Shown: one piece after another, positions 22,577-50,555 of the stretch
Position numbering within the stretch: position 1 is the first letter of the stretch
Layout: each line of letters begins with the position of its first letter
Assembly (NCBI GenBank): GCA_003194525.1
Contig: NBIV01000363.1
Span: 1-51,303 of the forward strand
Origin: Gracilariopsis chorda
Taxonomy: Eukaryota; Rhodophyta; Florideophyceae; Gracilariales; Gracilariaceae
DNA length: 51,303 nt
Reading direction: 5' to 3'
Notes under the pieces: generated by a model
Told to the model about the DNA's origin: nothing
Databases searched by the model: none
What the model saw: only the letters and a program-made list of their open reading frames with translations
Made by a program: the position numbers and the translations under genes

Positions 22577-22748
22577 TGTAATGCAATGACCGGAAGCGGG
22601 CGTGCACCGAAAGACGATCGGGATCTTTCCTCGTTAGAGGTGAGCACAGTTGGGTTGAGCCCTTCCAAGAGTGGCACGACTATGTCGGGTTGTAAGGCCG
22701 AGGCCACTCGTCGTGGCTTGTGCAAAGAGGTTGAGGCAAGAATCTGGT
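22577..22748 (-). repeat. Solo LTR A4, left part (split by element B)
   Basis: Diverged family-A LTR, aligned from its TGTAATGCAATG start to the insertion point of element B. Shared blocks with A1 include CACCGAAAGACG, the CCTC-loop-GAGG hairpin (22629-22640) and CAGTTGGGTTGAGCCC. Left flank AAAGT may pair with ATTGT after the right part as a decayed target-site duplication. No internal family-A sequence adjoins it, so it is a solo LTR. Confidence 0.8.
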
Positions 22749-24105
22749 TGTAGCAGAATGACCATTGGGCAGGTGCAGTGGTGAAAAAACCATGGACCTG
22801 GGCTGGCAGAGGTCAGAACATTGCTGGCCGGAATATTCCACGTGGCCAAGCTGGGTGCCTATGCAGGAGATACGAGGGGACAGTGCGAGTGCCAAGGCAC
22901 TGTGGCCATAGGTTTTATTATGTAGCTAATTTTATTTAATTTGTTAGGATAGTTGTAGTGCCACGCCCTCAGGGAGGGATTCTTGGAATTTGCATGCTTT
23001 CCCAATATTATCGGTTGTGTAGTGTGTATATGAACTACGCCCTACAGTGGTGGATATGGACACGTGGGACCCGGTCTTGGGTCAATTGGCGGTTGGCCAC
23101 AGTAGTGGATGTTGCCACGAAGTGTGGAGTATTTTAGTTGATTTTATTTATTATTTTCACACCCATTTCTGGGAAACTAGTACTTAGTGCGACGGCGCAC
23201 TGCCGTCACACCAGTAAACCTTCCCCAACAAGGGACCCCAACGTGGGGAATTGGCTCTAGTTGTTACCGCTTGCGCGCGTGCTCCACTACTCCTTGGAGG
23301 GAAACGCCGTGAACCACGGGACATCTAACCCCCTTGCACATCTAAAGGGATCCATCACTAGGAGTCATATTATTCCAATCGCATTGGTGTTTCGCCCTGT
23401 ATAGGGATATTCTTACCGGCATCGCCGTTCGCCCCCGTCGCTATCGCGACTCACTTCGTCCTCTCTTCCCCCTCTTCGCCCTTCCTTTTCCCCCTTTCTA
23501 GGGTAGCACCTCCCGCTATCCACAGCCCTCGTGTGTGCATCCGCTCACACACCCCGACTTACGTGGAAACCTACCTCTGGCGAGGACGCATTCCCGCTCT
23601 CGCGGATACCGATTCTTGTCCTAAACCCTCTTGCGCTAGTCGCGAAGGGTGGCCTCGGTCTTACAAACCGGCTCCGCCGTGCCAACCCTAGAGGGGCTCT
23701 ACCCAACTGGTTTCACCACCACGGAGGAAAGATCCCGAACGTCTTTCGGTGTTTCTCCCCTTAGGGGCGTTGCACCACAATAGTGTCCGGAGGTCAGAGC
23801 GCCTCGCCAGACATATAGGTTGGCTGGAGTGCCGCCGATCTCTGAAGTGTAAAGACAAGCACCGTCACCGTCTTCTTGCTGCCATATGCAGCCAGTAGGA
23901 CTCCAAAGGCCTCCAAGCCATCGCTACCATTCTACTGACCTGTAGGGACTTGAGATAGCGCCTGCCTATTGCACCTCGCTGCTAGTTGGTGCCCGCGTCA
24001 CTAGTAGACCCAGTGGATTGTCACCCCAGTGTCTGGCTCTCTGCTGCTACTACCCCCCAGTAGACTACTACCCCAGTTGGCCAAAGGACGTAGTATTCTA
24101 CTACA
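22749..24105 (+). repeat. 5' LTR of element B, interrupted by solo LTR A2
   Basis: The first 205 bp (to 22953) and the rest (from 23780, after removing one copy of the 5-bp duplication) rejoin to exactly 526 bp, the length of the uninterrupted 3' LTR. The interruption is the 826-bp LTR A2 plus its duplicated ATAGT. Confidence 0.92.
22954..23779 (+). repeat. Solo family-A LTR A2 inserted in the LTR of B
   Basis: An 826-bp LTR starting TGTAGTGCCACGCCC and ending GGGCGTTGCACCACA, the reverse complement of the A1/A3 LTRs over its full length. It is flanked by a perfect target-site duplication ATAGT (22949-22953 and 23780-23784). The empty site (GGATAGTGTCC) is preserved in the 3' LTR of B near 33669-33679. 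No internal region remains, so LTR-LTR recombination removed it. Confidence 0.95.
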
Positions 24106-24231: not shown

Positions 24232-26415
24232 ATGGATAACCAACAACCCAACCCAAGGAACGAAGACCAACAAGGAACCCCGGGTGCAGCCGCACCTCTC
24301 GCAGTCGCCGTAACCCCATTGGCTGCCCAAGCGGACAATAATAGTGACCGTATGAGTACCCGCAGCCGCTCCAGTGGACGTGTTATAGACCCTGTGGACA
24401 ATTTTGAAAGGATAACCAGAGATTCGCCATTGGTCGCTCGCCTCCGCGAGAGGATCGATCAGCTTAATCTTCCGCAAGGCCCATGGAATGACGCAGAACA
24501 GTCTCAGGACTTAGCAGCTACCGTAACCACCCCCCGTATGGTGGACGACGTCGCCGCTCTCCTATGGCCACAACTCTGCTCTTTCGTGCGAAAAACAAGT
24601 GGAGCAGTTCCTTAGGAACCAACTGGATAGAGTATTACGGGAGCGCCTCTCCTCTCTGGCAGACCAACTCATTCCTCAGGTTTTGCAATCAGATGTCCTC
24701 GTGGAGTCCATTGCCACGACCATCCAAGGGGAAATCACCCGCCAGGCAGGCACCTTTCACAGCCCTCGAGCTGTTTCTCAAAGTTTACCATTGGATGTCT
24801 ATCGGTCGACACACACCGGACCTCAGGAAGCAGCTATAGAAGTACACCCTCGCCTGGGTACAGCACAGGAAGGCCCATTGGGTTATATACCGTCTGGAGA
24901 AGAGAGACTCCAGAGGCAAAGAGGCCGTGCGGGAGATAAGACCAATGGAAAACACGGCGATCGGTACGCCGACGAGTACCTCGAGGACGATGAAGAGCTC
25001 GCCCAAAAGGACCTCGTAGATACTGAGACCCATAGGAAGAAGAGACGCAGCCGAAGGCGTAAGTCGAGGACGAACCATCGGAAGAGGCACCACTCGGACT
25101 CGAGCGATGCCATTCGGACTCGTCGGACTCTTCCGATACCAATACGGATGAGGCGGATGTTCGGCGCCTCAAACCATTAGTCACGACTAATTAGCTCTTC
25201 CAGAAAGTCTTAGACGTGAACACGTACCGTTTGATGGATCGGTCCACGCGGTACACCCCTTCGGTCGCCAGGAAGATTGCCAGGTGGGCGAAGAGAATGC
25301 AACTGACCGTCCAGGACAAGTTTTCTGGGAAGGATCCTATTACAGTCCTTAGGTTCTTGAGATCGTTCCAGGTGGCCTGTGACCAGAATAGTGTCCATGA
25401 AGGAGCGGCGCTTTATTGATTCCAGTTTTTCCTAAGTGGAGAAGCGAAGGACCAAGTGGTTGCCAAGATCTCCCCCTCGGCCAACCCCATTGATGCCCGA
25501 GATTGGGAGCTCCTAACGACCTATCCAGAGGTTGTTCATTACCTGTTGGAAACGTATGCGACTGATGACCACATAATAGACGCCTATCAGGACGTAATTG
25601 GATACTACCAGAGTTCCAGCATGTCCGAAACGGACTACGCCGACCAACTTTGGACTAGGGACCGCAGGTGCGGGAATTTGTTCTCCGAGGGTCGGCTGGA
25701 GCGACATTTTATCGCGGGATTGCTCCCTGCGATACGGACTCATGTCCGAAACCACCACACTTCCCATCCAGACTGGACGCTGCGTCAACTGGTGACATAT
25801 GCCGAAGGATATGGCAAGACCTATAGGACTTCCCGTCGAACGGGTGACGCGGATACTAGGGGTCGCGCAAGACCTCTGACCAGAAAAGTGAAGGCCCACA
25901 TGGTAGAGTCTCCGTCGGAGTCGCACTCGCCCTTTGGACATTCAGACACCGCAGATGCTCTTGCGGTGAGCTTCTCCTCAGCTCCGTCAGGAGCACCATC
26001 GGCCTTTTCGTCAGGAACGACCACCCCATCGGCCCCGGCGACACCCCGTTATTCTCCGATTGCCCCAAGGAAGGACATCATTACGAAGTCCAATCAGGCC
26101 TGTTATATTTGTCTCTCCACGGCACGGCCGTGTGACTGCATAAATTATATGCCTGAGGACATCCGCAAGGGAACTATGGCGCGAAGGGAGGAGAACTATC
26201 AGGTGCGCCTAGCCGAGGGTTACTTCCGTAGGACCTTCCCTCCAAGGACCATTGGAGCGCCAGGGAGCTCAAGGTATGTGACTCCCCTTACCACACCGGT
26301 GAAGCAACGTGAGGTCAACATGGTTGAAGACCGAAGGGATAGCGTCGAATACCTGGACGGACAAGGCGATCTTGCGGTGCCCACGCCGCAGGAAAACGAC
26401 CAGAGGGACGCATAG
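24232..26415 (+). pseudogene. gag: gag of element B (broken)
   Basis: Starts ATG 24232 (MDNQQPNPRNED) and continues through a frameshift near 24600 to 25180, then in the first frame from 25216 to 26415, with a stop region at 25181-25215 and a TGA at 25417-25419. The N-terminal half is polar, with a basic RRKSRTNHRKRHH run and a Ser/Asp/Arg-rich tail much like family A. The capsid-like half (PEVVHYLLETYATDDHIIDAY) parallels A1 gag (PEAVQYLLRSYATNTAIQQAI), showing common descent. In place of a canonical zinc knuckle it has CYICLSTARPCDC, with two CxxC-like pairs but no His. Role: particle formation and RNA binding. Confidence 0.82.
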
Positions 26416-29600: not shown

Positions 29601-30753
29601 TTAGGTCTAAAACATCTCTTCACCACCGCGTACTGTCCTCAGACCAATGGACAAGCCCAAAGTTTTAACCGAACCCTGGCAAAGAGACTAATTCACTACG
29701 TTTCCGAGCACCAATTGGACTGGGATGACTATGCACAGCCACTGGTCTATTCATACAATAATCAAGTGCATAAGTCCACTGGTACAACTACTTTTGACCT
29801 CACCCTCGTACGTGCCCCTGCGCCTTACATGGTTGACCTACAAGACTTAGGACCACCTCAGGACATAACGGAGGAAATGACTCCCGCCCAGGCCAAACGG
29901 TATTCGCGGAGGCGAATTGATTCTATCTTGAAGGCCGCACAGACCACGTTAGACAAAGTTCAAGCGCGCTATAAGGCCTATTTCGATCGGTCCGTTAGGT
30001 TTACACCGCAAGTGGCCGTGGGAGATTATGTCCACTTGGACAGACCACCGAAGGAAAAGCGCGAGGACGACGACGTCACAAAGAAGCTGTTGCCAAAGTC
30101 CACTGGGCCCTTCAAGGTACTTTAGTCCCTTTGGCACACGGTTACTATCGACCGAGATGGGTTCCAGGACACAGTCACAATGGACCGAGTATCTCTGGCG
30201 GCACGCCCACCTTCAACTGAACCATTGAACTCGCACGCTTTCCCTTCGTCCCAACCCCGACCCTCCATCCCTACGTAACCACTGGGCAAAAAACCCTACG
30301 GTCCCTCAGGAATCGCAGGTCTCTGCGGATCCAAAATGCCCTTCCCCAGATTGCTACGGTCCCCTGGACGAAATGGTACTTCCTGAAGAAGTATCCGACC
30401 CTATGGACATCGCTACGCGGACCCCCGTCGCTGTTCCTTCGGACGCTGATGGATACGGCCCTTTGGACCAAATAGACGTGCCGGAGGACGCCGAAGTCGA
30501 CGACCAACGAGAATATGTTCTTGACCATATCGTCTCCGCTGGGCTCACCGACGATGGCGAAGTGCGCTATAAAGTCCGTTGGTATGGCTATGAGCCCAAG
30601 GACGATACTTGGCTTCCGAGGTCAGACATCCCGGATAATTTTGTGGCCCGCTATTGGTCAAAAACAGGCCACACGGAGCGTGACCTTAAGGAGGGGGGTA
30701 TCCCTGGCCACAAATTTGCGCCAGCACGGGCCCAATCCGCTTCCATCCGATAG
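26607..30753 (+). pseudogene. pol: pol of element B with C-terminal chromodomain (broken)
   Basis: In order: protease LDTGAGPNLV (26650-26680); reverse transcriptase [11 protein letters not shown] and YLDDVITFS (27640-27980); RNase H with NYSTTEK and HQAADALSRI (28380-28750); integrase zinc domain HYPRLSGHPGG plus CAACAK, and DDE core FIAMDIIGPF, LLTDNGSQF, NGQAQSFNRTL (28695-30125); chromodomain EYVLDHIV...YKVRWYGYEPKDDTWLP (30482-30690). The catalytic Glu of the integrase is replaced: the family's GQxER is GQAQS here. At least four frame changes and several stops (for example TAG 28447) separate the parts. A chromodomain after the integrase places it in the chromovirus branch; in that group the domain steers insertion towards marked chromatin. 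Confidence 0.9.
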
Positions 30754-31089: not shown

Positions 31090-33362
31090 TTAGCCATAAG
31101 AACGACCACTAGGACGATGCAACCGGTTGAGAAGGAGATCCCGTGGGGCGCGCTTGCGAGCCGGACTCCGGGCGGAAGAGGATGAGGCACCACCAGCGGA
31201 CTCCGTGTCCGAAAGGTTAAGACCAAAGCGGTTATCAAGGTCTGTCGCGAAACGCTCGGAAAAAACCTTAGAGTTCTCCTCCAGAATGGTCACTAAGGCG
31301 TCTTTGACCTCTTGGTTACGCTGAACCAGCGAGTGGTACCGCGAAGCCCGGCGAGCCCAGGATTGGGCGGAACGAAGAGCCTCTACGATACCAGTGGGTT
31401 CAAGAATACCAACGGACGTGCATACCTTATTCAGATCATCGAAGGCCATTGTAATAACCTCTGGCATGACCGGCACGGGAGGCGAAGGAGGGACCACAGG
31501 GGCGGAAACCGTCATGGACGTAGGAGGTGGGGAAGCCAAGGGACTGACGGACGCCTCTGGGGGCTCTACCACGGCAACCTCATGCGCCGGCACGAAAAAC
31601 GGCCCTACCCATGGGGCCGGTACAGGTACTAGCACCTGCTCCCGTACTGGAGGACGAAAACAATCTTCGTGAAACCCAATGGCCTGAGGGTAGTAATCTG
31701 GCACGGACTGACGTGGCTCGTTCACGGGGACAGCCAACAATGGTTTGGCCTGGTAGACGTTCCCGTCATCATTGCCTCAAGGATGTCGCGGGATCGGGAA
31801 GAAGGTGTCGGTGTCATAATCGTACCAAAGGAGCCCGGGGGTCTGCGCCCAGTCGACCTGAAGGACATAATCCAATAGGGCCTCGGCCTCTTCACTCTCG
31901 TACTCCGTACCCCGGACTATGTTTTGCACTCCTAACTCACGGATGAGCCGGATCAAGGGCCGAGGAAGAGGCACGAGTCAGCCTTCAGTACTGGGAAGAA
32001 CCCGCTCGTTCCAGATACGGCAGTCGGCCTGCCGGACGTTAGCTTGGACCCCATAACGGGCGGTATCCAGAAAGACCACCAAACAGAACACGGCCTATTC
32101 GGCAAAAAGAACCTGCCAGGTCAGCCAGGGGAGACGTTTAGTGAAGCCCCCATGGATCTGATAGGTGTGGTAGGCCACCACGGACGGAGTAGGGAGCATA
32201 AGGAAACTGGAAATGTGCCAGATGGCAGCCTTAGGTCCGGCGCTAAGTGACGGTAGCATGAGATATAGGGAAGGCCTGCGGGACGGAGGCATATCGTGAA
32301 ATTCCGCTTGGTGCCAACAGAAGAATTACTTGAGGTTGGTTCGAATACGACCATCGGGTTCGATCATATCATTCCAGTAGGTCCGGTTCGATAACCAGTA
32401 CAAGCGGTCGTATGGAGGTCTGAAGCAGACTAACCCCAGGAGGCTAAGACCACGGGGAGGAAAGGGGGCCTTAGGGTCACCATGCATCGAATACAAGTCC
32501 TCCAGGAGCTTATTTACTCTCCATTGGTGATCCGACTTCTCGCGGCAGCGGACGAAGGGCATATCCGGTGGGACCAGAGCGCGGCAACGCGTGACCGAGC
32601 GGGCATCAGCAGGAAGGTGGAGCCAACGGTTGTACCAGGAGTCCTCTTGGGAGTTCTTCTTCGCACGGGCATGGTTGGGGATCCAGCGAACCGCCGGGCG
32701 TCCAAGTATTTGTCAGCATACCGCACGAACTCGGCGACAGAACTGGGTAGATGGGTACTCCTCACGGCCATAGGATTCCGACCCAAAGTGTGGTCGTACT
32801 TGTCCCCGGGATGGAAATATGCGCTGCTGGGGACCAGAGCCATGTTGTTGTAGTCTATAGTTATTGCCACCCGAGGGATACGCTTAAAGCCGTCATAGTC
32901 CAATAGGTAGCCATGAGAGACCTTATAGGCCCCCGAAGACATGGCGTAGACGCGATCGACAAGCCGGCACAGCGGACACGGTGCCAGAGGAGACCAACGG
33001 TCAGGAATCTGAAAGGCCAAGGGAATGCACCACGATCTACCGAATGGGCAGGTATGGTGGATGCACCAAGGCGGTATGAGAAGAAAAGAGCGACCAGAAG
33101 GACGAGGTAATCTAGAGGGAAGTATGGGCGTACTCGCCAGGGGTCGGTGAAATGCAGGAGCACGAGGAGCGCCCCGCAATTGAGACTCACTAGTTAATGA
33201 GGCCCCCTCATAGGTGACCAATGGCATGGTAGCGGCCACGTGCCACTTGCCGAAAAAAGCAACCAAATAAACACAAACCGGTACTGTCGCCGTACCTGCT
33301 GTGGAGGGGCCGGCCAGCCATGTCAACCAGGAGGCGAGAGACCTAATCGGGGGAGAGGACAC
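31090..33362 (-). pseudogene. Antisense gene (aORF) of element B, decayed
   Basis: Lies on the strand opposite gag-pol, between pol and the 3' LTR. An opening frame runs 33362-32514 (282 codons); after one frameshift near 32550 a second frame stays aligned to 31090, broken only by stops at 32326, 32095, 31978 and 31777. Blocks resemble the intact A3 product in order: PPYDRLYWLSNRTYWNDMIE (A3 PPHRLGRYVALPEWWRFHEA), LPSLSAGPKAAIWHIS (A3 LGSLLMQDPRSGLWSV), GVQANVRQADCRIWN (A3 FLQPRVRAAIRNLDL), EAEALLDYVLQVDW (A3 EALQLLGYIDSVSW) and YDYDTDTFFPI (A3 FIYFDPWEFREI). A Pro/Val/Ser-rich tail follows, with basic residues at the end. Function unknown. Being in one frame for 1.4 kb supports a former protein. 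Confidence 0.65.
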
Positions 33363-33454: not shown

Positions 33455-33470
33455 CTTAAGGGGGGAGGTC
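33455..33470 (+). other. Polypurine tract of element B
   Basis: CTTAAGGGGGGAGGTC directly precedes the TGTAGG start of the 3' LTR. Family A has CTTAAGGGGGGGGA in the same place (42931-42944). Confidence 0.8.
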
Positions 33471-33996
33471 TGTAGGAGAATGACCATTGGGCAGGTGCAG
33501 TGGTGAAGAAACCATGGGGCTGGGCTGGCAGAGGTGAGAACATTGCTGGCCGAAATATTCCACGTGGCAAAGCTGGGTGCCTATGCAGGAGATACGAGGG
33601 GACAGTGCGAGTGCCAAGGCAATGTGGCCATAGGTTTTATTATGTAGCTAATTTTATGTAATTTGTTAGGATAGTGTCCGGAGGTCAGAGCGCCTTGCCA
33701 GACATATAGGTTGGCTCGAGTGCCGCTGATCTCTGAAGTGTAAAGACAAGCACTGTCACCGTCTTCGTGCCGCCATATGCAGCCAGTAGGACTCCAAAGG
33801 CCTCCAAGCCATCGCTACCATTCTACCAACCTGTAGGGATTTGAGATAGCGCCCGCCCATTGCGCCTCGCTGCCAGTTGGTGCCCGCGTCACTAGTAGAC
33901 CCAGTGGATGGTCACCCCAGTGGCTGGCTCTCTGCTGCTACTACCCCCTAGTAGACTACTACCCCAGTTGGCCAAAGGACGTAGTATTCTAGTACA
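33471..33996 (+). repeat. 3' LTR of element B, 526 bp, uninterrupted
   Basis: Starts TGTAGGAGAATGACC and ends GTATTCTAGTACA. It retains the empty target site of solo LTR A2. An AT-rich stretch (TTTTATTATGTAGCTAATTT) near 33634-33653 could hold promoter or polyadenylation signals. Confidence 0.93.
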
Positions 33997-34631
33997 CGGG
34001 TATTTGTAGGAGCGGTGTATGGGGGAGGTCGTCCTCTACAGAGGTGAGGTTTCCACGTTAGTGACACGCGCGAACACGATCCGTAGGTAGCGAAAACGCC
34101 ACCCTGTAAAGGGAAAAATAATAAGGGGGAGCTGAGTCACGGTTTTCGTGACGAAGACTAACGGCAGTGCCGGTAAATAAACCTTATACAAGACGAACAC
34201 CAAGACAGTTGGAATAACAATCCGAATACTCTGGTCGTTTAGATAGGCAAGGGGGTTAGACTTCCCGTATGCGACGGTGCTTCCCTCCAAACAGGAGTAG
34301 AGAAAACGCGAAGGCGGTGAGGTCCAGAGCCAATTCCTGAGGTTGGGGTCCCTTGTTGGAGAAGTTTTACTGGTGCCATGGCAACTCGCTGGCGCACTAA
34401 GTACTAACCATCCCACTGTAATAACTAAATAAATAAGTAAGTAGAATTAACCAAATTACTCCACTTTGGTGGTTCATGCGCACTACTGTGGCCAACTGAC
34501 AATTGAATCTTCCGTGTCCCACTTGTCCAATCCACTATTAGTGGTCGTAGTTCATGCAATGCCTACATTACCGAAACATTCGCGAAATCAACCAAGTACC
34601 AAGAATCCCTCCCTGATGCCATTGCACTTCA
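33997..34631 (-). repeat. Solo LTR A4, right part
   Basis: Continues the LTR at exactly the point where the left part stops (A1 equivalent near 6355) and ends with ...GATGCCATTGCACTTCA. The two parts total 807 bp, or 802 after removing the 5-bp duplication made by element B, matching the 807-bp LTRs of A1 and A3. Several hairpins show compensatory changes relative to A1, for example 34136-34152. Confidence 0.82.
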
Positions 34632-35404: not shown

Positions 35405-36810
35405 ATGCAACTCTGTTGGCTTCACGTCGTCACCACTTGCGGCGACTACAAACCTCAAACTCCCTTGGCCTTATCTACATTTTCCTTACCATACGGCTGC
35501 TTGCTTCCTCTACAGCAAATGCCGCGACCTATAACACTTTATCTGGATGTACTCCAGTCCCGCCAAACACTCTATGACACCATCAAGGGCCGTCGTAGAC
35601 GACGACAACATGAACATATCAAACGTTTTGTACTTTTGTATCTTTTAAACTTATGGGATGAGGAGTATTCCAGTTGGATTATCCGAACAGTCATTTGTCG
35701 TCCACCATTTTCCCCAATTCAACACATTGGAAGCATTTCCGACTTCGCTTCCAAGCGAATGTACCGCGTCTCAAAGTTTCAGTTCAGGTTACTTTCGTCG
35801 AGTTTGCGTCAGCAATTGCAAAGAAAGCAACGCAAAACTGTCATGTAGCTGCTGCAGTAAGCATCGAAGTGATGCTTTTCGTCACCCTACGAATCCTGGC
35901 CGAAGGAAGCTATTTCGAAATTGGATGGCCGTACGGCATAGGAACTACAACTCTTAATTCCTTATTTCAGGAATCACTCTTTGCTCTCAAGAACTGTCTA
36001 CCTCCAATACGCTTCCCACAATCCGAAAGAGAATGCAAAGTGAATGCTAACATGTTTTGCAAACTGCGAAATAGTCCTCTTTGTGGCGTTATTGCAGCGT
36101 TAGATGGAATTGCCATCGAAGTTCAGAAAACTCGTCTATGTGACGCTCCTGATCCACCCAAGTTCTACAATCGAAAAGGATTTTTTGCGTTATGCGTACA
36201 GGCCGCCGTACAAGGAGACTATTGGTTTTGCTTTGTTTCAGCCACGCATTCTGGAGGCACTCATGATGCGACAGCTTTTTCCGCAACGAAACTTTACCAA
36301 CTGCTGAAAGGTTGTACTCTGCCGGACTGGGCCGCAGTCGTCGCTGATGATGCGTACAGCAACGAAGGTAGAGTGCTTTCACCGTACGCTGGAAAGCGGT
36401 TGACGCAGAAGGAAGACACTTTTAACGCGTACCATTCCTCTTTTCGCACAATAGTGGAACAGGCTTTCGGTATGCTTGTCAGCAGATTCGGTATCTTTTG
36501 GTCTGCAATAAGGTATCCCTTGAGAAAAGTACCTCTGATCATCTTAGTGGCTTGCCAGCTGCATAATTTCATTATTGATAATGCGGATGATATACTGTTT
36601 GAATACATCCCAAGCCACGAAGAAAACCATGTACACGGGTCCCCGGCTGTCAATTTTCAAGACGCAGTTCACATAGAACGTGACAGCTTGAGGTCCCGAA
36701 ATCGGTCTCGTCAATCTTCAACGCTTCGCGAGAATGTCACTGAACAACTGCACAGAATGGGGTTCTTACGACGAAGAACCGGCGGGAGAGCAGCGTGCAG
36801 GGAGACATAG
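35405..36810 (+). pseudogene. PIF/Harbinger-type transposase (nuclease), frameshifted
   Basis: A second Harbinger-family DDE protein, unlike the one at 14207. Its N-terminal part (MYRVSKFQFRLLSSSLRQQL) is in the frame 35405-35848; near 35830-35850 the similarity moves to the frame 35674-36810. That frame has LFVTLRILAEGSYFEIGWPYGIG, then IAALDGIAIEV (first Asp), KFYNRKGFFALCVQAAV, ATHSGGTHDATAFSAT, AVVADDAYS (second Asp), HSSFRTIVEQAFGMLVSRFGIF (Glu) and CQLHNFIIDNA, the full DDE set of the HARBI1/PIF type in order. The C-terminus is Arg/Ser-rich and the ORF reads 16 bp into the peptidyl-tRNA hydrolase ORF. No Myb-like partner or TIRs were found near it. Confidence 0.82.
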
Positions 36811-37265
36811 CTCACTTCCATTTGCACGACAGAAGCGTGATGCTGCTCAAACCAAGCACGTTTATGAATGCCTCCGGTCGCGCAGTACGTGCCGCTCTTA
36901 AGTACATGGACGCTCTTGTCGCAGCTCTGCTGGTTGTGAGAGACGATATATCGCTTGATCTGGGAGAAATTAGACTACGAGCGAAAGGCAGCGCCGGTGG
37001 GCATAATAGGCTGAAGAGTACACAACAATGTGTTGGCGGTATGAACTACGCTAGGCTACGAATTGGCGTTGGCTCTCCGAGTGGTAAAGCAAAAGATTGG
37101 GCGGACTTCGTTCTTGGATCCGTTTCCCAAGTAGAGAAGCAGGTTTTGGAAAAAGTGGAATGGGATGTGATGGAAGCCGTTGACTACGGGGTAGACGAAG
37201 CAAGCATCGAAAAAGTTCAGACTCAGATTGCGTTGGCCAAGCAAGGGAGACGAAATCATTGCTGA
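36795..37265 (+). pseudogene. pth: Peptidyl-tRNA hydrolase (Pth), N-terminally truncated
   Basis: Encodes the C-terminal three quarters of a bacterial-type (organellar in eukaryotes) peptidyl-tRNA hydrolase, which frees tRNA from stalled peptidyl-tRNA. Visible: LLKPSTFMNASGRAV (with the substrate-binding Asn of TFMN), VVRDDISLDLGEIRLRAKGS (catalytic-network Asp), GSAGGHNRLKS (Asn of GGHN; the usual Gly after HN is Arg), and YARLRIGVGSPSG. The first ~50 residues, with the GLGNPG motif and the catalytic His, are missing; upstream sequence is the PIF transposase. The remaining 156 codons are open to TGA 37263-37265. Without the catalytic His it should be inactive unless an upstream exon exists outside the recognisable region. 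Confidence 0.8.
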
Positions 37266-39755: not shown

Positions 39756-41308
39756 TTGTTCGTTGGCCCGTCCGCAGTTGGAGATATGAAGCACTCTAGC
39801 ACAATACGTGCAGCTCTCAGCGTGCTTCTCTCCATCTGCGCATGGCTCCAGTACCGGATCATTCGCCTGCAGCTCCCTGCGTTACAGTCAGCCCCCCTCC
39901 CAGATGCAATATCGTTTCTAGCGCCTCCACTCGTCCTGGCACTCGGTGCCATTCTGCAACGCAGCCTGCCACCAATTTGTTTCATTCCGCTGGTCATTTA
40001 TCCCTCGCTCAGTGCATGTGTGCTTGCAGTTGCTCAACTGCTTTGCCTGTTCCTGCTAACTGCTCTTGTCATATGCTCCTCTAAAACCGACTTTATTTGT
40101 GCATGCATTACATCACTGTTCTTGTTAATACTGGATGCTGCTGTACACTCTCGTTTATCACATGTTTTGTTGTTTAAAGTTCTCAAAACTACGCTTCCCT
40201 CAATAACATTTGCGATTGCAATGACGCACTTTGCGATAAGATCTGTAGCTCTAAACACATTACGTCTTTCACGGGACAAGCGCACTTGTCGGAAAAAGAA
40301 ACCCCTCCTCATCATGTACAGTTTGGTCATGGCTTTCCTGGCATCAGTACTTGTAGGACAGCTCCCCCCATTCATGCCACCACCACCACTTCCTAAACAT
40401 TATACCCTCCTTGCACAGTCTCGTGGTCTGACAGGCTTGATCAGCGTTGTTGAGAAACGAGGGGAATATCGAATGCTACTTGAGGATCTGTCCGTCTTGG
40501 GTGGTTATTTCGATGCCAGCAAGTACTACCCGGATTCCATATTCTCCCAATTCTATGTTCAGGAGGCAGTACGGCTTGTCGGACAGCGCAAGGACAACGC
40601 AACTGCACTATGTATTGGTCTGGGTATTGGGGTTGCTGCGAACGCCCTTTCGAAACATGGCGTCAAAGTAACTACTGTTGATATCGACCGGATCGTCGCA
40701 CTTTACGCCCGCAAATACTTCGGGCTCCAGATCCCTGTTCAAGTGGAGGACGCCATGTCATATGTCACAAAACGTCCCATTCATTCTTTTGATTACGTGA
40801 TCCATGAAGTTTTCACGGGGGGCACAATGCCGTCCGCGCTGTTCTCAGTTCAGATGTTTGAACACGCCTTTTTAAACCAAAAGGCGTGTTGGCTGTCAAT
40901 TTTGTTGAGGCTACGGAGCTCCGACCAACACCTGCGTCACAAGTTTTGTCACTTGTTTCCCAAAGGATGACGAAGGTATTTGCAAAAGTGCGTGCGTTTT
41001 CAGATGGTTTAGATGCTCGAATGCACAACATTGTACTGTTCACATCAACAGGGGAAGGCGCTGTGGTGTTCAGGGAACCGGATGAACAGTAGTTCCTGAG
41101 CTCTTCGATGAGACGCACTGCGCTAACCAGCTTTCAAGAGCACGAACTAGGTGAGGAACAGCTAAAGGGGTGCAGTGATTTGTGGAGTGTGGCTTGGGTG
41201 ATGTACCGGGGATTACTCGATATAGCTGAGGCACACCAAAGCCTGATGTATAATATTCACCCCAAGCAATCATGGCCTGCTATATTGGCAGCTGAGAAGT
41301 GGAAGTAA
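39756..41308 (+). pseudogene. Membrane spermidine-synthase-like methyltransferase (one frameshift, one stop)
   Basis: The N-terminal ~210 residues hold about six hydrophobic segments (for example LSVLLSICAWL, FLAPPLVLALGAIL, ACVLAVAQLLCLFLLTALVI, LLIMYSLVMAFLASVLVG). A spermidine-synthase-like Rossmann domain follows: HYTLLAQSRGLTGLISVVE, LGGYFDASKYYPDSIFSQFY, ALCIGLGIGVAANALSKHG (SAM-binding loop), VTTVDIDRIVALYARKYFG (acidic residue binding the nucleoside) and FDYVIHEVFTGGTMP. After a frame change in a T run at 40869-40873 it continues (VLAVNFVE...) to a TAG at 41090-41092 and then, in the same frame, to 41308 with the family-like end HQSLMYNIHPKQSWPAI. Fused TM plus spermidine-synthase-like proteins occur in fungi, algae and plants; the substrate is not predictable. 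ATG 39786 is an alternative start. Confidence 0.75.
40861..40890. repeat. Perfect 12-bp hairpin inside the methyltransferase gene
   Basis: Arms 40861-40872 and 40879-40890 around a 6-nt loop. The frame change of the host gene falls in the T run that spans the left arm and loop. Confidence 0.85.
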
Positions 41309-42121: not shown

Positions 42122-42928
42122 TGTGGTGCAATGCCCCAAAGGGGAAAAACACCGAAAGACGTCCGGGATCTTCCTCTCACGAGTTGAACCCAGTTGGGTA
42201 GAGCCCTCCCAGAGGTGTCACGGCGAAGCCGGTTTGTAAGACCAGGGACACCTGTCGCGACTCGCGCAGGGAGGTGAAGGCGAAGAATCGGTATCCGCGT
42301 GAGCGGGGTGTGATCCTCAGTAGAGGTATGTTTCCACGTAAGTGGGGGTGTGTGAGCGGATGCGCACACGAGGGCCGCGGATAGCGGGAGGGGCTACCCT
42401 AAAAAGGGGAAAGAGGAAGGACGAGTGGGTCGCGAGAGCGACGAGTAGATACGGCAATGCCGGTGGACAGGACTCCCTATACAGGGCGAAACACCAATAT
42501 GATTGGAACAATTAGTACTCCCAATGATGGGTCTCCTTTAGATGTGCAAGGGGGGTGAACTTCCGTACGCTACGGTGCTTCCCTCCAAGGAGGAGTTGAG
42601 AACACGCGGAGGCGGTAAAGCTCAGAGCCAATTCCCCAGGTTGGGGTCCCTTGTTGGGGAAGGTTTACTGGTGCGACGGCAGTGCGCCGTCGCACTAAGT
42701 ACTAGCTTCCCAGAAATGGGTGTGAAAATAATAAATAAAATTAACTAAAATACTCCACATTCCGTGGCAACATCCACTACTGTGGCCAACCGCCAATTGA
42801 CCCAAAACCGTGTCCCACGTGTCCATACCCACCATTGTGGGGCGTAGTTCATATACACACTACACAACCGATAATATCGGGAAAGCGTTCAAGTACCCAG
42901 AATCCCTCCCTGAGGGCGTTGCACTTCA
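42122..42928 (-). repeat. 3' LTR of A3, 807 bp
   Basis: Starts TGTGGTGCAATGCC and ends GGGCGTTGCACTTCA on the plus strand, so the element-sense LTR is TGAAGTGCAACGCCC...GGCATTGCACCACA with proper TG...CA ends. Equal in length to the A1 LTR. It lies just upstream of the antisense ORF, which would therefore be transcribed from within or across this LTR. Confidence 0.93.
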
Positions 42929-42930
42929 TA

Positions 42931-42944
42931 TCCCCCCCCTTAAG
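42931..42944 (-). other. Polypurine tract of A3
   Basis: Minus-strand CTTAAGGGGGGGGA, two bases from the LTR start, as needed to prime plus-strand DNA. It shares CTTAAGGGGGG with element B. Confidence 0.8.
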
Positions 42945-42985
42945 ACTGGAAAACGACCGCGGGCGCGGAGAATTCCCAGACGAAA

Positions 42986-44773
42986 ATGGGTGATAAAAGC
43001 GCGTGCTTTGTCTCCGGTTCTCGGGTAAATCCCTCTGCACCAGAGTCATCAAGCACACAAACGAAAACAACAGCCACCCTCCAAAAGGGACAAATGAACG
43101 ACGACAACCATATCAACAGCCACAGCCAACCGCCGAGACTTCTCGGGCGGTACACCACCGGTTTCCGGTCAGTTCCCCTGCCTCAGGGCGATCGAAATCC
43201 GGTACAACCGGGGAATATGGCTGCTGCAGCCGACCATCCCTTCGCACTACCACCTTCGGTGGTGTCCTCCGGAACCACTCCGGTGTCCAACTGGCCAACC
43301 TACAACACCCTGGTGGGGCTCAACCCGATGAATCGGAATCACGCGTCGCGCCTGCGCCTTGCCCCGTGGTTTCACCCGGTCGCTGTCCTCAATGAGGGGT
43401 TGGTCACCGCTTATGCGGATGGTTCAGACACCCTTCCGGGGGATCTGCCCAGAGCAGTCACCACATCGTGGGATTGGCGTCACCGGATTGCGATTCCGCG
43501 TCACCACCTCCGAAGAAACTCGGGCGAGACCGTCGCTGCGGCGCAGACCGCGCTGACGCGCATGGCGTACCAACGGCAGAGCCGGGCTCCGTTCGATGTA
43601 CCGGTCCCACCGGAGTTTGGCTTCGACATTAGCTACTTCCGCACTCGCGGGGAGATTAGGTACGGCGAGAACCTGTTCCGCCTCGAGACCCTCGCTTGGA
43701 GGAATTTCCCCGCAGCGCGGCAAGAGGCCCTTTGCTGGGAGCGACCGATTATTCGGGCGGAGTTCAGGTACCTTCCCCGGCAATACCGGTCCAACTTTCT
43801 CCAAAACTTCATCCGCTACGAGCGGCGTTGGCGATCCCGATTCGGGTACTTTATCCCGTATCAGAACGTGGAGATAGAGCGGATTGCGCCGCCTCACCGA
43901 CTAGGTCGGTATGTAGCACTCCCCGAGTGGTGGCGCTTCCATGAAGCCTGCCGGGGGTGCTACGTAGAACTTCCGCCGGTACTTACGTACCTCGGTTCGC
44001 TGCTCATGCAGGATCCCCGGTCGGGGTTGTGGTCCGTAGTGGTTACGGAGTGGGCGGCCCGCAATGCGGCTTATATCCTCAACGAGGCGTACGACCAGTA
44101 TCGTCTCTGGTTCCTTCAACCGCGCGTGCGGGCAGCGATCCGAAACCTGGATCTTCGCATCCCCCTTGGGGGCCAGGCCAACAATGAAGAGGCCCTCCAA
44201 TTACTTGGGTACATCGACAGCGTTAGCTGGAGTGAGGTCCCGCTGGAGCAAAGCGGTCGTCTGGATGGCGGCAGCGGTAACACCGGTGGCCCGCGACTGG
44301 GTAGAAACACCGCCCTTGCGGGTGATTTTATCTACTTCGACCCCTGGGAGTTCCGGGAAATTTCCTCCGAGGAGGCGCGCGAACTTCGCGATGCGCCCCG
44401 GCATGTGCCGGAAGACCACCCGGTGGGGTACGTCGATTCTGACGATTACTACCGCGCATACGGCGGGGATGACCCAATGGTCGATAAAGATCCGGAAGAG
44501 CCCGGGGAGATGGACGTAGAGGACACCGGCGCTAGCGCGGAAGCTTCCCCAGAGGGGGTACCTCCGGCCGAGCCCGCTGCTGACCCTTCGGCGGCGAGTG
44601 CCGGACCTTCTATCCCCAGCGGGGTAACGGCGAATGAAAACGAGATCATCGCGCGTTTTCTCCGGGGTGCCGGTCTTAGCGCTGCCGAGGTATCGGGGGA
44701 TGTCACCACCATGGCGGACGCGTTGGCCTACCGCCTTGCTGGGGGTTACGCCCCGGGCAACGGCGAAGAGTGA
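42986..44773 (+). CDS. Antisense gene (aORF) of A3, intact, function unknown
   Basis: A 595-codon ORF on the strand opposite gag-pol, starting 57 bp from the 3' LTR and converging on pol with 193 bp between stop codons. The N-terminal ~100 residues are polar. Residues ~100-400 form a Trp/Tyr/Arg-rich globular-looking region (RLRLAPWFHPV, SWDWRHRIAIPRH, RAEFRYLPRQYRSNFLQNFI, PPHRLGRYVALPEWWRFHEA, WAARNAAYILNEAYDQYRLWF). Residues ~445-545 are acidic and Pro/Ala/Glu-rich, and a short helical end (LSAAEVSGDVTTMADALAYRL) closes the protein. No signal peptide, zinc motif or enzyme motif is evident. A homologous decayed gene occupies the same place in element B. Antisense ORFs at this site are known in some plant Ty3/gypsy elements; I infer no function. 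Confidence 0.75.
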   Translation: MGDKSACFVSGSRVNPSAPESSSTQTKTTATLQKGQMNDDNHINSHSQPPRLLGRYTTGFRSVPLPQGDRNPVQPGNMAAAADHPFALPPSVVSSGTTPVSNWPTYNTLVGLNPMNRNHASRLRLAPWFHPVAVLNEGLVTAYADGSDTLPGDLPRAVTTSWDWRHRIAIPRHHLRRNSGETVAAAQTALTRMAYQRQSRAPFDVPVPPEFGFDISYFRTRGEIRYGENLFRLETLAWRNFPAARQEALCWERPIIRAEFRYLPRQYRSNFLQNFIRYERRWRSRFGYFIPYQNVEIERIAPPHRLGRYVALPEWWRFHEACRGCYVELPPVLTYLGSLLMQDPRSGLWSVVVTEWAARNAAYILNEAYDQYRLWFLQPRVRAAIRNLDLRIPLGGQANNEEALQLLGYIDSVSWSEVPLEQSGRLDGGSGNTGGPRLGRNTALAGDFIYFDPWEFREISSEEARELRDAPRHVPEDHPVGYVDSDDYYRAYGGDDPMVDKDPEEPGEMDVEDTGASAEASPEGVPPAEPAADPSAASAGPSIPSGVTANENEIIARFLRGAGLSAAEVSGDVTTMADALAYRLAGGYAPGNGEE

Positions 44774-44966
44774 GCTCCTTTTGTCCAGTTTTCCTGGTAT
44801 TCTTTCCCTGGCTATGCCAGTTAGTGTAGTGTAGTATCGTGAGGAGCTAGCTGCTCCCCTGAATAAACTTTCCCGTTTAGAACGGTGATTTCCAATTAGC
44901 ATTCCCCGTCTTAGACGGAATTTCCCTTGCTATCCTTTCTCATTGCCCTCCGCTCGCGCGGCAACG

Positions 44967-47900
44967 TTACCCAACTTGGGCATTAACCAGCGTGGCTGGG
45001 GCTGCAGTTCCCGTTTGACGGTGGTATCGCACGATCTGCGACCGTGGGAGGTGTTCAATTGGCTCCCACGTATCCCCACTGGGGTCGTACCCGTACCAGC
45101 GGACGCGGTATTGTAGAATACCATCCTGGTCCCAGGTGTGTCCGACAAGTCGGTCTACTACGAACTCTCGTTCGTAGACCTGCCGGCCGTGCCGGGTGGT
45201 GGTTGTACTCCCTTGCGAGGGTTGTCCGCGGTGCGGTATAATGTCCCTTAGCAGGGTGTTCGGCGATAACTCCGACGTTGCCGTGCGCTGTCCTAGTGGC
45301 CGCTGCTCATGCGGGAAAATATCCCTCAAGAGGGTATGTGGTGTCACGGTTTTCCCCGGCAAGTCATTCCCCATTGGGGTGTCGTTGTTCCCGTCTTCAC
45401 GGTAGGCCAGGCGAAACGCCAACCGGCGGGGGACTTGAACTCCGCATTCGCGGTTGAACTCACGAACCGCGAGTTTGCGGGAAGATGACCGCTCCTGCGG
45501 AATCGGCGTTTCCACGATCCCCTGGGGGGTCCCGTGCGGCACGGTGGTTGGATGGCAAACCGCCTCCCTGCCAGGCGCACGAGCGCTCTGCACCGTACGT
45601 TCCGGCGGCGCCGTGGTGTCCCCGGCTACTGGGGGGTTGCCTAAGGCTAACTCCGGTACACCGGTATTTTGGTCAAAATTCCCCTTTGGGGGGTGCCGGG
45701 CAGGTGCCGATGACACCCTTTTCAGGGGCCTGGCCGCTAAGTGCGGTGCACCGTCTCCATGAGGAGGAGCAGCGTCCGGTACGACCGGTTTCGAGCGTGC
45801 GATGGCGCGCGTTTTTCCCGAGTTCCTCGGTTCTTCGCCGCAGCGTTGCGGTAGTTGGCGCAAATTATTCCCCGGAACGGGGGCTTCGATTCCGTCTGCG
45901 ACGGGGAGCGTTTCCGAGCGCTGCGCGCCAGGGCCTGAAGCTTCGGATGCGGCTTGGCTACCCTTTTCCCCGATAGGGGTGTGGGTATTTCCCAGCGGCG
46001 CTGGTGTATCTGGGCGCCTCTTCTCCGCGGGGCGCGGGTCTGAGCGACCTGATTGAACCGCTCCCGCGGGGACTTCCGCCAATGGCGGCTTTGAGGCATC
46101 TCCCTGCTCAGGGGATTGAGGGCGATTGTCGCCGTACTCCCGTATCGGGGATCCTTCCCTGACAGGGGTGTGCGGTAGCTGCGTTTCAGCTTCCCGTGTA
46201 ACACGGTGTATTTGCCGCCTTTGCGGGACCTGTGCGTCTGGTTCCTGTTGCACAGCGCTGCCCGAGGACGGGGGATTAGTGTCGCGTGAGATACTCCGTG
46301 CTCCACGGTCAGTTGTCCGTATGGTACGGCGTGTTTCCCGTTGCGACGGCGATCTCATTCCTCGAAAACGAGTGTTCTCCTCCCCCTCCTGAGACGGAGC
46401 GGCGGGATAAGGGATAACATGCCCCGCCTGGCGGGTGTAGATTCGCGCCATAGGGGCGGGCACAGAGAGGCCCGAATTACCCGGCTGAGCCGGTGAGTCC
46501 GACAGGGTCGGTAGGTCTGAGAGTCCCCGGGAGGGGTGTGGTAGCACGGTAGGCCGTCTCACCACCGATGTATCGGATGCAGAGCCATATTCCAGCGTAG
46601 GGTCCAGCGTAGCTGGTGCAGCCTCAGTCGAGGGTGGCGGAGCTAGCACGATGCGATCGCGAGATAACCGCTCATGCGCGTCACCCATTTCCACAACCAC
46701 TGTGTCCGTCGTGACGGAGATAACCTTGAAAGGACCATCCGCCACAGGCGAGAGCTTATGGTGCTTCTCCTTTTCAGGGTTGTAGTACTCCTTGCGGACG
46801 AATACGAAGTCCCCGGAGTTGATCTGTTCCGGTTTGCCTCCTCGCAAGCGAGCATCGAAATTCCGTTTGTAGACGGCTTGGGCGTGGTCCATCGCCTCCC
46901 GCGCTGCGGGTACCAGCTTGGTCAGCCATGCTTTCCACTTCTGGCGGTAATCCTTCACAGAAGGGAACGCGTCCAACGTAGGTTGGGATTCCAACGCCAT
47001 TGGCGGGGGTGTCCGTGAAAGGACCAACTCGAAAGGGGATATTCCGGTAGTCCGGTGTACCTGCGTATTGTACGCAAAGGTCACGGCATCCGTGTAGATA
47101 TCCCAAGTCTTGGGGTGGTCAGCCGTGTAAGCACGGAGAGCTGCGAGCATTGTCCGGTTGAAACGCTCGACCTGCCCATTAGACTGGGGATGATACGTGG
47201 TCGTGAAGAGATTCTTCACGTCCAGTATCCGACAGACGTCCTGGAAAAATCGCGATGCGAACTGTTTCCCGTTGTCGGAAAGTAGCTCCAAAGGAGGTCC
47301 GTAGGCAAACACCCAATGCCGCACAAAGGCGTGAGCGACCGTGTAGGCGGTAATCCTCTTTAGAGGGACTGTCCGAACTAATTTCGAGAACCTGTCCGTA
47401 ATAACGAGTAGGAACTTGTTGCCTCTCCTGGTAGAGAGCAATGGTCCGAGAATGTCAATTGCGACAAACTCGAGCGGCGCCCTGGCGGGGAATAGCTTCA
47501 TCCGTTTGGAGTGCTTCCGGAGTTTGACCCGGTTCTTCGCGCATTGCGTGCAAAACCGCACCGTAGCGTAGCAATCAACCGCCATGGCGGGCCAGTAGAA
47601 ATCCCTGCGAAGGGTTAGATAAAGCTTCCTCCCACCGGAGTGTCCCCCGAGTTTCGGGTAATGCGAAAGGTGCAATATCCGCTTCTGTAGCGTGTGCGGT
47701 ACCACAACTTGTGGGGTAGCCTCGACGGTCCTCACGAGGTAACCAATGTCGTTCACCCCGAAGGGGAGGTTCTCTCCGCCGTTGAGGCGTGCACGTATCC
47801 TTGTACAGAAGGGGTCCCCGAATTGTTCTCGGATCATTTCCTCGGTCTCAACCGGTACATAATTTCCCGGTATGGGTTTCTCAGAATCGTCTCGCGATGC

Positions 47901-50555
47901 GAGTAGGTAGTCGAAGTCAGCATCTTCGTCCCAGTTTTCTGGCTCAGCCTCGACGGCACATTCCGGATCATCCGGGTCCATTGCCATGAAACATGGGACT
48001 TCATCATCCTCCGTTGGGAGTGCCTCCCCACTTGTGGGTAAACGCGACAGAGCGTCGGCTTGGGTGTTCTGCGCGCCCTTTTTATAAATGACTTGGAAGT
48101 CATATTCCGCGAGGCGGAGTCTCCAGCGCATGAGGCGTCCCGACGGGTCGGAGATATTCATTAACCACCTCAGTGAGGAATGATCCGTGTACACGGTGAA
48201 ATGGACTCCCATAAGGTAGGGGCGCAGAGTGGTCATCGCCCATACGACGGCGAGGCACTCTTTCTCCGATACGGAGTAGTTCCGCTCATGGACATTGAGC
48301 GAGCGCGACCAATAACCAATTGGGTGTCGTTCCCCCTCGGGGTGGTTTGAAAAAGAGCACACCCGACTTGGTAGTCGCTCGAGTCCGTATCTACGGAGTA
48401 TGGCAACCCAAGTTTTGGGAGATGTAGGATTGGTGCTGATGTGACAGCCTCCTTCAAGGAGTTAAAGGCTTCCGATTGCTCGGGCGTAAATGTTCCCAGT
48501 TTTGGGGGGTTCCCCTTTCGCAACAACGCGTTCAGGGGCGCTGCAGTATCCGAAAAGTTCGGGATAAACCGTCGATAGACGTTGACCAGCCCCAGAAAGG
48601 AGCGCAGTTCCGTTTGAGTACGGGGTTCTTTCGCCTCAACGAGGGATTTGACTCGAGCTTTCTCGATCGCTAACCGTCCAGGACGGATAATGTGACCCAG
48701 ATACTTCACAGTATCTGTGAAAAACTCGCATTTCCTCAACTTGAGGGTAATTCCCGCATCGCGGAGTACGGTCAGCACGTCTCGGACGTGAGTGAGATGG
48801 TCGTCCAACGAGTTGGAGAAGATGATAATATCATCAAGGTAGACCAGACAACTCCGCCATTTAAAGCGGTTGAGTAGAATATCTACTGCACGCTGAAAGG
48901 TGGCGGGGGCGTTGGTTAACCCAAATGGCATCCGCTTGAAGCGGTACGTTCCTGCATGGCAGGTGAATGCGGTTTTGTCGCGATCCTCCTGTCTGACAGG
49001 TACTTGCCAATATCCCCAATTGGCATCAAGGGCCGTGAACACGGTGGCGTCTCCAAGGGAGTCAATGCACTCGTCCATACGAGGGATGGGGTACGTGTCC
49101 CTAACAGTCACGGCATTGAGCCGGCGGTAGTCGACACAGAACCTCCAGGTTCCGTCAGCCTTTAAAGCCAGTACAACTGGGGATGCCCAGGGCGATTGAG
49201 CGGGCTCAATCACACCTGCGCGGAGCATCTTGTCCACCTGGGACTGCTCCTCTTCCCGAGCTTTCGGACCTGCCCTGTAAGGGGGTTGTGCAACCGGTCG
49301 CGCACCGGGGATTAAATCGATCCGGTGTTCCGTTGCATCAATCTCGCCAAGCGAGCCATCCCACATTGTGGTGAATTCCCGTAACATAGTACGGAGTTTG
49401 TTGCGGTGCGACTCTGGCACGTGGCTGAAGTCCAGCGCTTCAAGTGCTTTTTCCGGATCAATCCGGTCATTGCTCGATGGAGCATTGTCCTGTGGAACAG
49501 GTGTGGTTCGCAATTCCGAGTTACTCGGTATGTTCGACGCTGAAGTAGCGGTTTCCTCCCCCTCCTTAGACTTGACGTCTTCGGACGGCGGGGTGAACTC
49601 CTCAGAAGAGGTGGTAACTCCGAGTACATCGGCGGCTGTCATCTTCGTTGGCAGCATTCCCATAGGATGGGGGTTACACTCCCAATTACTTGGTGTTTGA
49701 CCAGATACTGGGGGTGTTTGCCAAGGTTGGCAACCAATATCCGGAAAGGAACATCCGGGGAAATGGAGACAATTCCATTAGCCAGCGCCAGCTGGGATTT
49801 CTCGTACAACGAGGCGAGGGGTTGTATAACCCGAAGACCGTGTTGACGGGAATTTACCTGTACCCAGACTTGGGACTCAGCCGGTATAGAAACCGAGGCA
49901 GCGACGCGGAGCTTGGTGGACTCGCGGGACGCGGGCGGTGGTTCCTGCGCAGCAGGGAGCGGAACTTGTTTCCGAGAGGACCGCTTTAGCGGGCGGCGAA
50001 CAATCGGAACCGACGATCCGTCGTCAAGTTCTACACGCCTGAGGCGGGGCCTGATTGCGTCGACAAATCTGTCGCAGTAATCACATCCCAGTATGACTGG
50101 TGCTGCCAGTGAACGGCAAACGATGAAGTCCAACTTCACCACAGATGTACCAAGTCTCACGACGAGGTCCACTGTGCCCACCGTTTTGTAACGGATTGTT
50201 GTTCGCATCCGAAATGTCGGGGACCGCGTCAGAGCGGATACGCGACCGCACAAGCGGGGGTAACAATGATTCCACGACAAAGTTGGGGCCTGCACCTGTA
50301 TCCAGGACGGGAGAAACCTCACCATAAACTGGGGTCAAGGCCAAGGTCGGCATAGACCTTATAATTGCGCTTGGCCAAGACCAAGACTCTACCGGGAATC
50401 CGGGGATTTTTACTCCGTATCCACGGGCGACGCAACACACCGAGGTGCGCAGAGTCCGCGTCAGCGGTGTCTTTCCTCGAGAGGACTTTCACCGGGGAGC
50501 GAGGCGAGGACGCCTCGGGCGCCAACAGCCTCGTTTTTGAGGACGCCTCTCCCAA
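44967..50555 (-). pseudogene. pol: pol of A3: PR, RT, RNase H, IN, long linker, chromodomain (frameshifted)
   Basis: ATG 50555 follows the gag stop by 17 bp. Fragments: 50555-50319, 50325-49639 (protease; the DTGAG motif lies at the frame break near 50310), 49663-48233 (reverse transcriptase with FCVDYRRLNAV and YLDD; RNase H TDSSDYQVG) and 48362-44967 (1131 codons). The last holds RNase H EKECLAVVW and QADALSRL, the integrase zinc domain (HYPKLGGHSGG, CTQCAK), a complete DDE set (FVAIDILGP, LSDNGKQFA, GQVERFNRTM), the GPF/Y-like module (DGPFKVISV), about 370 residues rich in Pro, Arg, Ser and Gln, and a chromodomain (FVVDRLVG...YRVRWYGYDPSGDTWEP) at about 45010-45190. One missing G near 48345 relative to A1 breaks the RNase H. 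Confidence 0.93.

Follow-up and report, generated by a model that had tools for sequence, protein, structure and literature searches.

A convergent antisense gene between pol and the 3' LTR in red-algal chromoviruses

A 51,303-nucleotide stretch of the genome of the red alga Gracilariopsis chorda (Florideophyceae, Gracilariales; contig NBIV01000363.1 of assembly GCA_003194525.1; the window) carries an LTR element, A3, with a long open reading frame running opposite to pol. This raises the question of whether such a frame is an inherited accessory gene of the element, as an earlier note on this DNA had claimed, or a chance ORF, and what its product could do. In a six-frame ORF reading, a single open frame of 595 codons was present just where that note had placed it, at 42986-44773 on the + strand, with pol on the - strand. 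On one side it is bordered by the 3' LTR of A3 (42122-42928, - strand, 807 bp, TG...CA), whose limits were taken from the repeat borders that it has in common with two further LTR copies of the window. Beside this LTR, eight consecutive C on the + strand mark the putative polypurine tract of the - strand (42929-42943, read by eye). On the other side lies the RNaseH-integrase-chromodomain end of A3 pol (44967-48362, -), and beyond it the ORF for the reverse transcriptase (RT), identified by Pfam (48233-49663, -), and a protease-region ORF (49639-50325, -). The latter had no Pfam match and was assigned from its place in the gene order and from 34% identity to the corresponding region of a second element of the window, B. 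RVT_1, RT_RNaseH, Integrase_H2C2, rve and Chromo (the chromodomain, PF00385, at 45021-45164, -) all scored over the Pfam cut-off in A3 pol, which identifies the element as a chromovirus (Ty3/gypsy). Its 5' LTR is outside view because the element extends past the right end of the window. With the antisense ATG 57 bp from the edge of the 3' LTR and the antisense stop 193 bp from the pol stop, the two genes converge.

Some further features of the window were recorded. Its A3 pol (44967-50325) is split over three overlapping ORFs, while the antisense gene is intact; elsewhere in the genome, at five or more sites, an A3-type chromodomain lies in an open frame of 1884-1885 codons. Between integrase and chromodomain, A3 pol has a segment of about 480 residues in which Pro, Arg and Ser are abundant and which varies among copies. 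At 35674-37265, an ORF for a DDE_Tnp_4 transposase and the beginning of an ORF resembling peptidyl-tRNA hydrolase overlap, which may reflect insertion beside or within a host gene. The ORF at 39756-40970 is probably a host gene; its similarity to a spermine/spermidine synthase domain falls slightly short of the Pfam cut-off.

Many further copies were found in the host genome (91.3 Mb in 1081 contigs), in divergent families. In a DNA search with the A3 ORF, the best 40 of 665 candidates were all 97-100% identical, 39 of them over the full 1788 bases. Thirty A3-family copies were fetched; 24 keep 595 codons, three have 613 codons and three are shortened or broken, but these were the most similar copies and hence biased to intact ones. 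A protein search returned seven relatives, two from G. chorda, one from Gracilaria domingensis and four without a named host. Residues 1-491 of the G. chorda protein P0003 (BWQ96_03215) are encoded in the genome at 100% identity. With P0006 as the query of a tblastn search, the best 68 of 1447 candidates were 36-44% identical, with a stop-free match in 52 of the 68 and open frames of up to 673 aa. A third family (L070) has 10 copies at 99-100% identity, nine of which are without a stop in 737 codons. All copy counts are lower bounds, since only the best candidates were scored. Two A3-type antisense genes on contig C701 (17 kb) lie inverted about 2.6 kb apart, an arrangement which may be a genuine palindrome or result from misassembly.

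Pairwise identity of the core among eight representatives ranges from 20% to 79%. Core residues identical in all eight include, in A3 numbering, R197, E223, Y226, C250, P254, R283, W349, R373, G395 and W415; past the core, D452 and P453 are likewise identical in 8/8. In a small tree of the same representatives, L062 and L070, the B-type pair, group together with full support at the end of a long branch, and the position of this pair relative to the A-type sequences (A3, P0003, L049, L032, L033, P0006) has a low support of 0.59.

The window itself holds one of these distant relatives. In element B, the chromodomain at the end of pol (30505-30669, +) is 43.6% identical to that of A3 (E 1e-11), and the 3' LTR follows at 33467-33996 (+). 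Its integrase scored over the Pfam cut-off, and RT and chromodomain were assigned by similarity to A3; on this basis B is also taken as a chromovirus. The description of B as a different family holds: identity to A3 pol is 49-55% in the RT and 40% across RNaseH and integrase, the chromodomain is its own, and its LTR gave no match over 100 bp to the A LTR at E 1e-20. Between chromodomain and LTR, on the opposite strand to pol, lies the decayed antisense frame that had been reported there (31147-32700, -). It was traced by its 84% match to L062, within which there are two TGA, one TAG and one TAA. The remains also match the intact 737-aa ORF of the third family in two segments, 31663-32685 (-; 51%, E 2.3e-108) and 31147-31611 (-; 37%, E 1.3e-23). 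L062 is a B copy whose frame stays open for 652 codons from stop to stop; the longest frames of the other seven B copies fetched (eight out of 44 among the matches listed) are 296-541 codons.

Similar protein blocks in the A3 and B frames had been read by eye. Pairwise, this similarity is non-significant: BLASTP of the A3 product against the B frame 32514-33362 gave no match (best E 1.7). A profile of six A sequences did not match B at 31090-31740 (probability 1.7%), and against the window's six frames it found one B piece, 31977-31780, at E 0.002. The blocks were thus right, but their proof needed profiles. Comparison of an A-group with a B-group profile gave an E-value of 4.2e-7 and a score of 62.9; the reversed alignment scored 18.9, and 50 column shuffles reached no more than 27.6. 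When the third family was added, the values became 1.9e-10 and 89.4, with a maximum of 30.0 in 50 column shuffles. By its match to the intact 737-aa ORF and by these profiles, the decayed frame of B is the same gene as the A3 ORF.

Two further observations concern B. Its 5' LTR is in two parts, 22746-22953 and 23780-24105, with an A-family LTR in inverted orientation between them (about 22954-23784); the insertion of B thus preceded a move by an A-family element. Just past the 3' LTR, 34252-34406 is 78-82% identical to part of the A-family LTR.

Place and strand of the gene are fixed. Of the flanked loci, 60/60 (L001-L060, representing four or more protein clusters) matched the chromodomain end of A3 pol on the opposite strand, past the antisense stop. 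The same was seen in L069 and in B; the fetched piece of L070 had no chromodomain match. The LTR side of the gene is defined for A3 and B, and in both the gene lies antisense between pol and the 3' LTR. Relative to A3, the chromodomain is 53% identical in L059, 52% in L049, 49% in L033, 47% in L032, 46% in L069 (over 41 residues) and 43.6% in B. The antisense core is 57% identical to A3 in L049, 45% in L033 and L032, 28% in L070 and 26% in L062, and the two rankings are the same, which fits one gain followed by joint descent with the element.

The coding frame is conserved and carries signs of purifying selection. Among seven pairs of copies, the antisense frame had a dN/dS of 0.29 for L001/L013, 0.21 for L049/L059 and 0.16 for L032/L033, the last with a dS of about 2, near saturation. 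Higher values were obtained for L033/L044 (0.56) and L032/L043 (0.70); L001/L049 was saturated and L069/L070 had no synonymous change. A dN/dS near 1, named in the earlier note as evidence that would count against a gene, is therefore not general (0.16-0.29 in three of seven pairs), although the case is weak at 0.56 and 0.70 and two of the seven pairs are uninformative. In the three pairs with low values, the +1, +2 and rc0 frames gave 1.1-2.1 and rc2 gave 1.9-2.1. The rc1 frame gave 0.27-0.35 and mirrors the antisense frame because the third codon positions of the two coincide. For L032/L043, frame specificity is absent, with 0.58 in rc2 (below the 0.70 of the antisense frame) and 0.76 in rc1.

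The copies of the A3 family were also compared by how widely their variants are shared. Over 30 copies, singletons comprised 34 synonymous and 82 nonsynonymous or stop variants, and variants found in at least three copies comprised 27 synonymous and 24 nonsynonymous ones (Fisher p 0.005, not counting variants present in exactly two copies). Shared variants numbered one in the L033 group (15/15 copies used) and two in the L049 group (9/11 used, two copies having been dropped because they aligned over less than 85% of the ORF), so that the contrast is informative in the A3 family only. It is consistent with inserted copies being free to decay and constraint acting on the lineages that spread.

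These results bear on two explanations in which the protein plays no part. The first is a chance ORF kept open by base composition or by overlapping sense-strand coding, for which the GC content of the region (60%) and the low dN/dS mirrored in rc1 could be cited. The longest ATG-initiated ORF in 500 dinucleotide shuffles of 42929-44966, read in six frames, had 307 codons (mean 132), against 595 observed, and the protein has homologs across families. The other five frames have 7-33 stops in each of nine ORFs tested, so that sense-strand coding does not account for the similarity, and rc1, with 19-33 stops in every one of the nine, is not a coding frame. The data thus do not fit a chance ORF, and we regard its probability as negligible. 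The second explanation is that the antisense RNA rather than the protein is what is kept, as an RNA control of the element. Precedent exists in the antisense RNAs of Ty1, which inhibit transposition according to work cited in part of PMC4007536, and a passage of the plant aORF review leaves an RNA role open (PMC7264820). Yet what is conserved is the amino-acid sequence, for the most part in a frame-specific way, with the dN/dS of 0.16-0.29 in three of seven pairs, and the nucleotide identity of A3 and L049 goes down to 53% with both frames still open. A function of the RNA alone was rejected on these grounds and seems very improbable. Place, strand, homology and dN/dS together support the proposal of an inherited accessory gene over that of a chance ORF, as far as sequence comparison can tell.

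We slightly favour the reading that this is an accessory gene of a red-algal chromovirus lineage, expressed from an antisense mRNA of the 3' LTR, whose product regulates the element in trans. The gene would have been gained once, before families with about 50% identical RTs split, and then passed down with the element. Its mRNA would start in the 3' LTR, as only 57 bp separate LTR and ATG in A3. The A3 start site would have to lie within the LTR, in the adjacent 57 bp or in host DNA beyond; a CATATAC motif 136 bp before the antisense ATG, kept in both A3 subgroups, is a candidate only. In most families the mRNA would end at an AATAAA that precedes the chromodomain end of pol and would thus not have to extend through pol. 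This signal occurs 31-93 nt past the antisense stop in four of six families (A3, at 44862-44867 on the + strand, 89 nt past the stop; L033; L049; L069). Its dinucleotide-shuffle probability in 120-nt stretches is 0.0015-0.018 in each. It is absent from the L032/L043 family and from the 159 nt available in L062. The opposite-strand signal TTTATT was found in none of the six families within 120 nt past the antisense stop. Over the fetched loci (L001-L070), AATAAA is about sevenfold denser than TTTATT on the antisense-oriented strand, and A-rich runs of the LTR may account for part of the excess.

The protein has no family that we could recognise, as had been noted at first sight. In Pfam, no family hit two or more of the 12 members, the best E being 0.05, and a sequence search of the PDB found no match to the antisense protein. 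A fold search with predicted models likewise found none, but the models were poor and this search is thus without meaning. Nor did the 12 members show a Pfam match to bZIP, the domain type of HBZ, the antisense protein of HTLV-1. P0003, P0004 and P0007 appear in gene catalogues as hypothetical proteins. Members share an architecture of a variable, often Pro-rich N-terminus, a conserved Arg/Trp-rich core, an acidic tail and a short conserved C-terminal segment. The tail is net negative in 12/12 members. The core is net positive in 9/12, zero in P0006, and -1 and -2 in the two B members. Short basic clusters are present in six of eight members examined, A3 and L059 having none. The charge of the A3 core is +10, against -12 to +23 (median 5) in equal stretches of A3 pol; as it falls within the pol range, nucleic-acid binding is weakly supported, and charge alone says little.

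With such a product, the preferred regulatory reading would have the protein act in trans on the element's own expression or replication, probably through contact with nucleic acid or chromatin. Regulation of a nuclear or RNA-linked kind is favoured by analogy with proposals made for the plant elements Grande and Retand and, weakly, by the Arg-rich core of the A type. The chief rival is counter-defence, because convergent transcripts invite double-stranded RNA: the antisense protein would block RNA silencing and so shield the element. The convergent layout in 60/60 loci, the Arg-rich core of the A group and the many near-identical copies, which suggest recent spread, are all consistent with this. 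The B core, however, is not basic, the lack of any Pfam match better than E 0.05 in 12 members means no likeness to known suppressor families, and an AATAAA before the pol end limits transcript overlap without abolishing it. A silencing suppressor is on balance unlikely. A structural role, in which the product would be incorporated into the particle with Gag or perform an Env-like function, is more doubtful still. It would suit a protein of 595-737 aa with one conserved core and conservation across element families, but a separate antisense RNA would be needed to make it. No Gag or Env family was matched by the 12 members in Pfam, and B already has a gag-like sense ORF (25456-26415, by eye). 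The extra ORF is moreover antisense, whereas an Env-like gene would follow pol in sense orientation.

As far as our searches reach, the layout is of a known kind, whereas the protein family is undescribed, belongs to a distant phylum and was apparently inherited for a long time. No antisense gene of red-algal LTR elements was named in the titles or abstract starts listed by searches of open-licence literature. Since members are catalogued as hypothetical proteins, naming the family would correct annotation, and the young, near-identical copies offer a system for testing transcription and function.

Antisense genes of LTR elements are known from flowering plants, one fungal element and retroviruses, as passages of PMC7264820 and PMC11963269 relate. 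The same texts describe, as plant aORF-3R (Grande gene23, RIRE2, Retand, PvRetro13), a large ORF located between pol and the 3' LTR on the strand opposite to gag-pol, which is retained in numerous copies and in several families and is of unknown function. They also report a promoter upstream of Grande gene23 and proposals of regulatory roles for the Grande and Retand antisense proteins. The parallel with Tat/Grande-type elements drawn in the earlier note stands for the layout described in these passages, and the red-algal gene likewise has many copies (by lower-bound counts) and distant families. It does not extend to TRP28 (PF04195), the sole testable domain, which was found in 0/12 members at E up to 1. 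According to the same sources, Retand belongs to a non-chromovirus lineage and its ORF contains TRP28, which is known from flowering plants only; with TRP28 absent and a pol of the chromodomain type, the red-algal proteins are not Retand/TRP28 proteins. From the plant elements as portrayed there, the red-algal ones differ in their chromodomain, their host phylum and the lack of a Pfam match, and Grande, RIRE2 and PvRetro13 are likened to them by layout, not by protein sequence. According to a section of PMC7264820, Boty of Botrytis and Sclerotinia, a fungal element, shows the same layout outside plants, its antisense ORF being flanked by pol and the 3' LTR; here, too, the likeness is one of layout. 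The nearest model for the supposed start site is HBZ of HTLV-1, an animal retrovirus, compared here through Pfam; its antisense gene has a promoter inside the 3' LTR, as stated in parts of PMC11963269 and PMC7264820. That a protein family with no known relative, with many open copies and a measurable signal of selection, occupies this position in chromodomain elements of a remote phylum would suggest that convergent antisense genes were gained repeatedly and independently. More tentatively, and with rather less than even confidence, we suggest that a whole clade of red-algal chromoviruses has this undescribed family as an ancient third core gene, in addition to gag and pol, driven by a bidirectional 3' LTR, with its own polyadenylation signal, and gained independently of the flowering-plant and retroviral cases because convergent antisense genes repeatedly help LTR elements survive host silencing.
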